NCBI RefSeq assembly: GCF_000723185.1
Contig: NZ_CBTY010000006.1
Span: 248,001 to 312,000 of the forward strand
Source: Candidatus Nitrosotenuis uzonensis
GTDB taxonomy: Archaea > Thermoproteota > Nitrososphaeria > Nitrososphaerales > Nitrosopumilaceae
Direction of reading: 5' to 3'
Length of the DNA: 64,000 bases
Shown here: one piece after another, positions 40,407-44,361 of the stretch
Position numbering within the stretch: the first letter of the stretch is position 1
Layout of the letters: each line of letters begins with the position of its first letter
The notes under the pieces: model-generated
Seen by the model: only the letters and a program-made list of their open reading frames with translations
The model's database searches: none
Told to the model about the DNA's origin: nothing
Translations under genes and position numbers: made by a program

Positions 40407-42317
40407 GTGAGCACGGACATCAGCTGGTTGATTGGCGGCCCTCAGGGAAGCGGCGTGGAATCTGCAGCCAACATATTTTCTCGGGCATGCGCAGCTATGG
40501 GGTATAACATCTTTGGAAAAAGAGAATACTATTCTAACATAAAAGGTGAGCACAGCTACTTTGTGGTCCGGGTCTCGGACAGGGAAGTAAGATCAAGTGT
40601 AAATGATGTTTCGGTTATGGTCGCATTCGATGCAGAGACGATATTTAGACACTATGATGAAATTGCAAAGGACGGCGCGATAATATACGATTCTGATATT
40701 GCCCAAGTAAAGATAGACGAGGTACATACCATAGATGCACCGTATAAGGCAAGACTGCTAAAACAGCTTGAACTCAACAACAAAAAGCCGATCGTCTCAG
40801 AACTGCTTGAAATTGCAAAGGACAAGGGCGTGAAGATTTACACGGTTTCATTTAAGACAATACTTGCAAACCTTGCAGATGAAATGAACAACCCACGACT
40901 GAAGGGAATGGTGAGAATGTACAACGTACTTGCAGTCTCATTTTCACTGGGATTACTAAAGATGCCACCGCAGACAATTCTGGAATCAATTGATATGATA
41001 TTTGCAAAAAAGAAAGCAATAGCTGACATCAACAAGAGCGCCGCAACGTATGCTTACAATTATGCATCTGTCAAGTTTACAGACTGTGCACAACTGCTCA
41101 AGCCTGTACAAAAGCAAAGTGACATGATTTTGGTGCAGGGATATCAAGGAACTGCACTCGGCAAGATGGCATGCGGCTGCCGGTTCCAATCATACTACCC
41201 CATAACGCCTGCGTCAGATGAGAGCGTATTCCTCGAGTCAAACGAAATACTGGAGGTCAAGGACAACAGGCCCGGCTCCACACTTGTAATCCAAACTGAG
41301 GATGAGATATCAGCTATGGGCATGATGATAGGCAGCGCATTGACTGGAACAAGATCCTCTACTAGTACATCAGGTCCTGGGTTTTCTCTTATGGCAGAAG
41401 CCCTTGGATGGGCAGGAATCAATGAGGTGCCGATAGTTATCACTTTATACCAAAGAAGTGGACCATCTACAGGACTTCCTACAAGGCACGGGCAGGATGA
41501 TCTGCTGTTTGCAATCAACGCAGGGCACGGCGAATTTCCAAGAATTGTTTATGCGTCAGGCGATGTTGAGGAGAGCTTTTACGATACTGCACGGTGCTTT
41601 AACTATGCTGACATGTACCAGCTTCCGGTAATACACATGATGGACAAATTCCTTGCAAGCTCCGTTCTTACATGCAAAAAATTTGATACAAACAAGATCA
41701 CCATAAACCGCGGCAAGCTATTGGAAAAAATAGACAATGGAGATTACAGAAGATTCGAGCTTACCGACGATAACATCTCCCCAAGATCCAAACTGGGCCT
41801 TGAGAACGGAATATTCTGGAACACTGGCGATGAAAGCGACGAGAAAGGACACATCACGGAGGATCCAGTATTGAGAGTTCAGATGATGGACAAGCGTCTT
41901 GCAAAGCTCTCACACATTCTAAAGACTGTGCCTGATGAGGAGCAGGCAGTCTCGTTTGGAACCGCGGAGACATGTATAGTAAGCTGGGGCTCACCAAAGG
42001 GGCCGATTCTGGACGCACTTGAAATGCTACAAAAGGAGAACATCAAGATAGGATTCATTCAGATAAAGCTGATACACCCATTCCCGGTCCAATACATGAA
42101 ATTCCTGCTCAAAGACGTCAAGACGATAATTGACATAGAGGCAAACCAGACAGGCCAGCTAGGCCAGGTGCTAAAGCAGAATCTTGAGAGGGGACCAGAC
42201 TATTACATCCTAAAATATACTGGACGGGCCATGACCTCAACTGAGATATACGATTCACTAAAAAACATAATAGAAAAGAAGGCGCAAGAAAGGCAGGTAC
42301 TCACACATGGAGCTTAA
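40407..42317 (+). CDS. korA: 2-oxoacid:ferredoxin oxidoreductase, fused gamma-alpha subunit
   Basis: A 636-residue subunit of a two-subunit thiamine-dependent oxidoreductase for 2-oxoglutarate, pyruvate or similar acids. The N-terminal gamma domain (residues 1 to ~190, [20 protein letters not shown]) is joined to the alpha domain, which has [27 protein letters not shown] and [15 protein letters not shown]. The YPITP motif marks the two-subunit alpha-beta enzymes. It reduces ferredoxin in the TCA-type carbon route. Start GTG at 40407; the end overlaps korB by 11 nt. Confidence 0.92.
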
Positions 42318-44361
42318 TCTGGGCGATTACAAGACTGACGTGCACAACGACTGGTGCCCTGGCTGTGTGCTTCCTGACACCATGATACACTGCAATCCGT
42401 CAGTAAAGCAAATCCAGCAAGTCAGCGTGGGCGAGAGAGTGCTAGGAAGGGACGGATTCTACCACAAGGTTAGCGAGGTAATGGCACACATTCATCGTGG
42501 CAAGGTGTTCAAGATAATGACAAAGTTTTTTGGCCCTACGTATCTTACCGACGAGCATCCAGTGCTGATTGTAAGACGTGAGCATCCAAAACTGCACAAC
42601 AAAAACTTTGACGCGATATGGACTAGGGCTGACCAAATAAAAGAAAAAGACTATCTTGTTTACCCAATACAAAAGGAAGAATTAGATAGAGAATACATCC
42701 AGGTTGACTACAAACTAAAAGACACGCTCAGCAAACTTTCAGATAAAATTCCGCTAAATGATGATGTTTTAAGAATGTTTGGTTACTATATTGCAGAAGG
42801 ATACGTGCATGGCAGATCTGTATGTTTCACCTTTAATTCAAGAGAGCTGGAATTTCTAAATGATGTAGAAAATACAATGCTGCAGGTTTTTGGACTGAGA
42901 GGAACAAGAAAAACAAAACGAAACGCAACCACAATAGCATTCCACTGTGCACCGTTAGGAAGGGTCTTTCTTGAATGGTTCGGCCAGAAGGCACTTGATA
43001 AAAAAATCCCCCATTTTGCAATGCTGCTTCCAGCAGAAAAGCAGAAGAGCCTGATAAAGGGTATGTGGCGCGGAGATGGTTGGATAAGCACAAAGCAGCT
43101 TCGAGGCAACTTCAAGACTGTATCAAAAATCCTTTCCGAACAACTCAAAACATTATTGTTGCGGCAAGGAGTGGTGCCTACTATCTCTGTCAACAAAAAA
43201 TATGGCATTCATAAAGAATCTTATTCGATTCAGGTTGTCAATGACCGTGATTTTGCAATATTATGTAAGATAATCGATGAAAAACTCGAACAAAAACTGC
43301 ATACTGGCAAGCCCACTTCTTCCATCATCACACCTGATTACATGCTTATCCCTGTCAGAAAAATCGAGAGTTTTGACTATGACGGACCTGTCTATAATCT
43401 AGAGGTAGACGATGTTAACTCGTATGTAAGCGAGAATGCCATTTTGCATAACTGCGGAGATTTTGGCATTGTAAATGCAATACAAATGTCGCTCTCAGAA
43501 ATGCAGATTCCACGTCACAAGGCTGCAATATTCTCAGGAATCGGCTGCTCTGGGAAAACATCGCATTTTATCAACGTCTATGGTGTGCACACGCTGCATG
43601 GAAGGGTCCTAACATTTGCACAGGGCGCCAAGCTTGCAAATCCTGACATGGAAATAATAGCGGTGGGAGGAGACGGAGACGGATTGGGAATTGGGGCAGG
43701 ACACTTTGTGGCAGCAGGGCGTAGAAATCTTGACATGACATACATCATATTCAACAACGGAGTATACGGGTTAACAAAAGGCCAAGCGTCGCCTACACTT
43801 AAGCTTGGCGAAAAAACAAAATCACTCCCAGCACCAAACACAAACTATAACGTAAATCCTATAGGCCTTGCAATAGCCAGCGGGTTTACTTTTGTTGCAA
43901 GAGGATATGCGTACGACGTGCGACACCTAAAGGATCTGATAGTTGCTGCAGTGCAACACAAGGGGCTTGCATTCCTTGACGTGCTGCAGCCATGCCCTAC
44001 ATATAATGATATTAACACAAGGGACTGGTATGCCGGAATGGACAGAGTCGATGAGGTGACAAAAAAACCACAACCGCGAACGTATCACCTTGAGGATACC
44101 GGCTATGATCCGGTGGTCCACTATGGCTCTGAAACCGAGCTTAACGAAAAACTCGCACAGGCACTAATAAAATCGCTAGAATGGGACACAAAGATTCCGA
44201 CCGGAATATTCTACAAAAACGAGGTGATAAGCCAGTATGATAAGAGAATCATGGACAAAATTCCAAACTATCTTGAAAACTATCCTGCAATACAGACAAT
44301 ATCTGCAAACGGCAGGCCTACTACGGACATTTCTCCCATATTGGACTCGCTTTCAATATGA
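42307..44361 (+). CDS. korB: 2-oxoacid:ferredoxin oxidoreductase beta subunit, intein-containing
   Basis: A 684-residue precursor: N-extein residues 1-19, intein 20-382, C-extein 383-684, giving a 321-residue mature protein after splicing. Joined exteins restore [16 protein letters not shown], the [4Fe-4S] and thiamine-pyrophosphate region. Two more predicted cluster cysteines are in [10 protein letters not shown] and LQPCPTYND; the TPP motif is [15 protein letters not shown] followed by [11 protein letters not shown]. Splicing must precede cluster assembly, because the intein separates the first two ligand cysteines. It is the partner of korA, which it overlaps by 11 nt. Confidence 0.95.
42364..43452 (+). 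mobile_element. Intein with LAGLIDADG homing endonuclease in korB
   Basis: A 363-residue in-frame insertion. Block A is [10 protein letters not shown] with Cys1; block B is [10 protein letters not shown] with Thr81 and His84 of the precursor; the DOD endonuclease has its two helices at FGYYIAEG (158-165, acidic Glu164) and [10 protein letters not shown] (249-258, Asp257); block F is [18 protein letters not shown]; block G is LHN followed by Cys+1. All residues needed for protein splicing are present, and both LAGLIDADG motifs keep their acidic residue, so endonuclease activity is plausible. Confidence 0.95.

Follow-up and report, generated by a model that had tools for sequence, protein, structure and literature searches.

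A class 1-type intein with a LAGLIDADG endonuclease domain at the predicted cluster-binding motif of KorB in Candidatus Nitrosotenuis uzonensis

Introduction

Standard class 1 splicing yields the mature host protein, and the freed intein can act as a homing endonuclease. According to the accounts of Callahan et al. (2011) in PMC3922620 and PMC10663303, a natural disulfide between Cys(-3) and Cys1 of the P. abyssi MoaA intein blocks the first splicing step, and in the Ssp DnaE intein a Cys introduced at -3 by design creates a redox trap. Oxidation-sensitive splicing of the Mycobacterium tuberculosis SufB intein is cited in PMC6195587, and an effect of zinc on splicing has a precedent in another intein, that of mycobacterial DnaB (PMC7360933).

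Here, an intein in the beta subunit of 2-oxoacid:ferredoxin oxidoreductase (KorB) of the ammonia-oxidizing archaeon Candidatus Nitrosotenuis uzonensis was analyzed. It shares with the MoaA intein of P. abyssi, whose host is oxygen-labile, a Cys(-3) that can pair with the catalytic Cys1; the host protein is a different one, and the disulfide has been demonstrated for MoaA and is predicted for KorB. The SufB intein likewise resides in an Fe-S cluster protein, as indicated in PMC6195587, but that host is an assembly protein of the SUF system. No report of an intein at the KorB site was found in the open-access literature, covered largely through titles and abstracts, and the curated family models contained no entry for a KorB intein.

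Results

Host gene and reading frame

The window comprises 64,000 nucleotides (positions 248,001 to 312,000 of contig NZ_CBTY010000006.1, assembly GCF_000723185.1), and all features below lie on its + strand. The gene for the alpha subunit (korA, 40407..42317), identified by Pfam matches to POR_N (4e-55), POR (2e-30), and PFOR_II (1e-11), is located directly upstream of korB and overlaps its start by 11 bases. The korB precursor is a single open frame of 684 amino acids (42307..44361), consisting of N-extein, intein, and C-extein. Only one match to KorB was present in the whole genome, and KorB must be made functional because this is the sole copy.

The insertion occupies residues 20-382 of the precursor, between WCPG and CGDFG. 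The N-extein (19 amino acids; 42307..42363) ends in HNDWCPG, at a border that matches empty alleles, and the C-extein (302 amino acids; 43453..44361), placed by the joined-extein match, begins with CGDFG. When the insertion was removed, the joined exteins formed a protein of 321 amino acids containing WCPGCGDFG, as the earlier note had read the frame. The joined sequence scored 436.4 bits against the NCBI KorB equivalog model NF041171 and passed its cut-off of 423 bits, whereas the unspliced frame (415.5 bits) fell below it. The CXGC cluster motif and the TPP_enzyme_C and PFO_beta_C domains were found in the host protein, which could be aligned to its nearest solved relatives, the Sulfolobus tokodaii enzymes 5b46/5b48.

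In StOFOR2, the Cys12-Cys15 loop corresponds to the conserved CXGC motif and ligates the cluster (PMC5020499). By homology to this loop, Cys(-3) and Cys+1 of KorB are predicted to be the first two [4Fe-4S] ligands, in agreement with the ligand role proposed earlier for Cys+1. Since these two ligands are 363 residues apart in the precursor, cluster assembly would take place only after splicing.

Anatomy and predicted structure of the intein

The previously proposed in-frame intein of 363 residues (42364..43452) proved exact in its limits; natural empty alleles in 14 of 15 congeners bear out its two borders to the codon. The insertion was confirmed as an intein with a two-motif LAGLIDADG endonuclease, far beyond chance, with Pfam matches to LAGLIDADG_3 (9.5e-16) and Intein_splicing (1.3e-10) that both exceeded their cut-offs.

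All the splicing and endonuclease motifs named in the earlier note were located. The first splicing nucleophile, Cys1 (42364..42366), T62 and H65 of block B (T62-x-x-H65; 42547..42558), and N363 were invariant in an alignment of 47 inteins. The C-terminal splicing region with blocks F and G (43339..43452) ends in H362-N363 and is followed by Cys+1 (43453-43455), the second splicing nucleophile and predicted [4Fe-4S] ligand (PMC5020499). The homing endonuclease domain (approximately residues 128-315; 42745..43308) matches the I-DmoI and PI-PkoII endonucleases and contains two DOD motifs; the first, ten residues long (42772..42801), carries the catalytic acid E145, and the second, GMWRGDG (43060..43080), the catalytic acid D238. 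Cys(-3), the first Cys of the CPGC cluster motif (42355..42357), was a Cys in 45 of 45 KorB-site inteins. The precursor thus reads W-Cys(-3)-Pro-Gly-Cys1, in which Cys(-3) and Cys1 form a CxxC.

An AlphaFold model of the intein, built on the 47 inteins, reached a pLDDT of 93.2 and a pTM of 0.91. It replaced an earlier model from 11 near relatives, which had a poor Hint domain and a pLDDT of 30-40 at the ends. The closest structures were TliVMA (7qss; Z 34.6, 338 residues, rmsd 2.9) and PI-PkoII (2cw7; Z 32.2), which share a Hint splicing fold with an inserted LAGLIDADG endonuclease and aligned over residues 1-363, but reside in other host genes and are 20-23% identical over the structural alignment. 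Separately, the Hint part matched hedgehog domains as well as the Mtu RecA and Ssp DnaB mini-inteins, all with Z 18-19, while for the endonuclease part the match was I-DmoI (Z 16.2). The restored host frame, the Cys1/TxxH/Asn/Cys+1 set, and the modeled Hint fold point to a class 1 intein, and the two DOD motifs with their acids and the predicted alpha-beta fold to a LAGLIDADG enzyme.

Presence and absence among close relatives

KorB was present in 190 of the 200 Nitrosopumilaceae genomes sampled, and 11 of these 190, including that of the window, carried the intein. Among the 15 congeners with KorB, the single carrier was G076, whose locus (L003) is contained with full identity in the record L087 of Candidatus Nitrosotenuis chungbukensis MY2; the site was empty in the others, whose KorBs were 84-88% identical to that of the window. 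Nearly all close relatives thus lack the insertion at exactly this site, the check that the earlier note had proposed. The KorB of Nitrosotenuis chungbukensis, which contains the intein, shared 99% of its residues with that of an empty relative (G082).

Both endonuclease acids were retained in 10 of the 11 family copies. In the remaining one (L012, genome G144), both were lost, and the endonuclease part was far more diverged than the splicing blocks, which were intact. The dN/dS ratio was approximately 0.07 for the endonuclease (nine relatives), 0.065 for the N-splicing part, and 0.04 for the C-splicing part, which are rough estimates with dS near saturation; these values suggest purifying selection on the splicing and endonuclease parts alike. 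When the N. chungbukensis locus (L003) was set against L048, the nearest relative with an empty site, no co-conversion tract was visible beside the intein, and divergence between the two was even along korA-korB.

Three further inteins were encoded in the same genome (L161-L163 set): a mini-intein in an SNF2-type helicase (G000:C8:155889-156425), one in MCM (G000:C6:172765-173877), and one in ribonucleotide reductase at NP|CGEQ (G000:C6:8061-9041).

Occurrence at the same codon across archaea and bacteria

A scan of approximately 85,000 species genomes yielded 402 relatives, and the best 80 were taken into the analysis. Including the window and L012, at least 45 sequences, some of them near-duplicates, had an intein at the same KorB/PorB codon. 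According to the taxon names in the records, many of which are metagenome bins, the carriers on the Nitrososphaerota side were Nitrosopumilaceae, Nitrososphaera, Nitrosocaldus, and other Nitrososphaerales. Other archaeal carriers belonged to Bathyarchaeota, Thermoplasmata, Micrarchaeota, Parvarchaeota, and Aenigmatarchaeota, and bacterial ones to Bipolaricaulota and Levyibacteriota. The earlier note supposed that no intein had been described at this site, and the open-access reports and curated families covered here are consistent with it. The site is not unique to the window, however: in at least 44 other sequences the same codon is occupied by a member of this intein clade. The site thus appears to be undescribed although widespread in public genomes, while inteins of this kind are known.

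In the intein tree, the KorB-site inteins fell on one side of a branch (97), and their sister clade consisted of inteins that interrupt IscU/NifU at its first cysteine (SH-aLRT 99). The tree of the KorB hosts conflicted with the intein tree. A constraint that held the Nitrososphaerota inteins as one clade was rejected (p 4e-9), as was one that grouped the hosts sharing one intein subclade (p 7e-5); for a grouping of the Thermoplasmata and Parvarchaeota hosts, p was 0.50. The inteins of a Thermoplasmata locus (L100) and two Parvarchaeota were 67-69% identical versus 42% for their KorBs, and those of Micrarchaeota and Nitrososphaeria were 56-63% identical versus 42-47%. The conflict between intein and host trees therefore indicates that the element moves between phyla. 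No viral, phage, or plasmid KorB carriers were found, only distant inteins (22-27% identity) in other genes.

Several individual loci deserve mention. Between L100 and L096, L101, and L102 (Thermoplasmata, Parvarchaeota), inteins were 61-69% and KorBs about 41% identical, which may reflect transfer between symbiont and host lineages. An Aenigmatarchaeota KorB-like frame of 1013 amino acids (L086:2932-5970) contained two inteins, one at WCPG|C and a distant relative at SGIG|C, the latter being another conserved cysteine of the enzyme. In a Chloroflexi-labelled sequence (L116:2458-5400), the codons for CGDFG were deleted together with the C-terminal splice region of the KorB intein, owing either to a broken allele or to misassembly, and in L097 a frame break was present soon after the KorB intein.

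Relatives at other cysteine sites

The hosts of relatives outside KorB were named from motifs. In IscU/NifU, inteins directly preceding the first of the scaffold cysteines (GNPV|CGD) were found in many archaea and bacteria (L117, L118, L121-L131, L133, L134, L136, L137, L139, L140, L142, L150, L153). Like the KorB intein, they are inserted before Cys-Gly-Asp, and Pro is frequent at -2 at both sites; unlike it, they reside in a cluster scaffold and lack Cys at -3. The common Cys-Gly-Asp and the frequent Pro at -2 could explain a host jump between KorB and IscU.

In thioredoxin-reductase-like proteins (L132, L149, L151), the intein splits the active-site CxxC (CAT|CD), leaving a natural Cys(-3)/Cys1 pair. 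NuoI contained inteins at three positions (CHF|CTDYCP, CGF|CVDACP, and a third), each directly before a cluster cysteine (L030, L032, L040, L135, L138, L141, L143, L144, L147, L152, L154, L036, L042, L038), and a further relative was detected in a radical-SAM enzyme at CDF|CW. Inteins in a PHP/EndoQ-like protein (IPAH|CWTP; L145, L146, L148) came from small-genome archaea. Relatives away from redox cysteines also occurred, in S-adenosylmethionine synthetase and the EndoQ-like protein. In a control set of general inteins of the phylum, which covered few sites, none was at an Fe-S CxxC; most were at ribonucleotide reductase, MCM, helicase, and other ATPase sites. The Tes (tetraether synthase) intein family was also searched for in the class as a candidate comparison, but the top matches began beyond the intein region and provided no comparison site.

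The wider lineage may repeatedly colonize cluster- or disulfide-forming cysteines (KorB, IscU/NifU, NuoI, radical SAM, thioredoxin reductase), with the host CxxC making many of the precursors redox-gated and the inteins a recurrent checkpoint, acting after translation, on Fe-S and redox enzymes in archaea and some bacteria. We regard this generalization as tentative and rather doubtful; a preference for redox cysteines is not statistically firm because the distinct sites are too few.

Discussion

Very probably, a class 1 endonuclease-bearing intein homed into a conserved codon of korB, that of the second cluster cysteine, where it self-splices and spreads, and where slowed splicing under oxidation is to be expected. 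Its anatomy, borders, predicted fold, distribution, and horizontal movement can be seen from the sequences. For splicing, homing activity, and oxidation sensitivity, knowledge of the intein family provides the basis. Splicing would proceed by an acyl shift at Cys1, transfer to Cys+1, and cyclization of Asn363, and would join WCPG to CGDFG and restore the C-P-G-C motif that is predicted to bind the [4Fe-4S] cluster. The LAGLIDADG domain would cut empty korB alleles, so that the element spreads and, over longer times, crosses phyla. Oxidation would slow splicing through Cys(-3)/Cys1, for which the MoaA intein of P. abyssi is the model.

Oxidation-sensitive splicing is a specific prediction because the precursor CxxC has the geometry of the MoaA redox trap, with a Cys(-3) predicted to be pairable with Cys1. 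Redox control of KorB splicing is thus plausible. The earlier note had also considered a redox-responsive enzyme, and the CxxC pair, which it did not mention, is the strongest reason to propose such responsiveness. However, the host motif needs Cys(-3) anyway, so that its presence does not indicate that a redox trap has been selected for.

The chances are even that the intein is purely selfish and splices fast in all cell conditions, its position at a cluster cysteine being due to the targeting of the most conserved codons and the need for Cys at +1. Such an element would explain the patchy distribution, the precisely empty alleles, the transfer across phyla, and the conserved endonuclease, and L012, with its decayed endonuclease and intact splicing blocks, is what the homing cycle predicts. 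Selfishness by itself nevertheless leaves an effect of oxidation possible, and the CxxC makes such an effect chemically likely. A selfish element with redox sensitivity as a by-product is favored, owing to the patchy presence and to a CxxC that comes from the host motif.

Alternatively, the intein may have been retained as a regulatory switch, in which a Cys(-3)-Cys1 disulfide keeps KorB inactive and cluster-free under oxygen stress, reduction releases it, and the benefit retains the intein. The CxxC geometry at every KorB-site intein, the relatives at other redox cysteines (CxxC of NuoI and thioredoxin reductase, radical SAM, IscU), and the MoaA intein, which acts in this way in published work as reviewed in PMC10663303, speak for a switch. 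We consider it unlikely, however. The intein is dispensable, given its rarity in the family and its absence from a 99%-identical relative, and an element found so sporadically in near-identical relatives is unlikely to have an essential role in regulation. Carriers among DPANN archaea and Bipolaricaulota indicate no single lineage or lifestyle, and the CxxC is supplied by the host site. In addition, relative oxygen tolerance has been reported for the (ab)2 OFORs found in aerobic microbes (PMC5020499), which weakens the need for oxygen protection of KorB.

Broken relatives such as L116 and L097 exist elsewhere, but nothing in the genome of the window suggests a dead insertion that no longer splices and leaves KorB inactive; with all catalytic residues intact, the low dN/dS of both splicing parts, and a single-copy KorB, this is very improbable. 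An assembly or contamination artefact, to which the many metagenome bins among the carriers might point, has a negligible chance, given the same allele in Candidatus Nitrosotenuis chungbukensis MY2 and in independent assemblies, always within a host-like KorB.

The KorB intein adds an apparently unpublished insertion site in an enzyme of central carbon metabolism. For the question, still debated in the field, of whether Fe-S enzymes are gated by inteins according to redox state, its Cys(-3)/Cys1 pair within the cluster motif would offer a simple mesophilic test. The intein clade has crossed phyla and probably also domains, and among archaea it has passed between small symbiont-type lineages and others. 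Since its sister clade occupies IscU, a jump appears to have taken place from one Fe-S gene to another, the two being unrelated but having Cys-Gly-Asp in common at the site.
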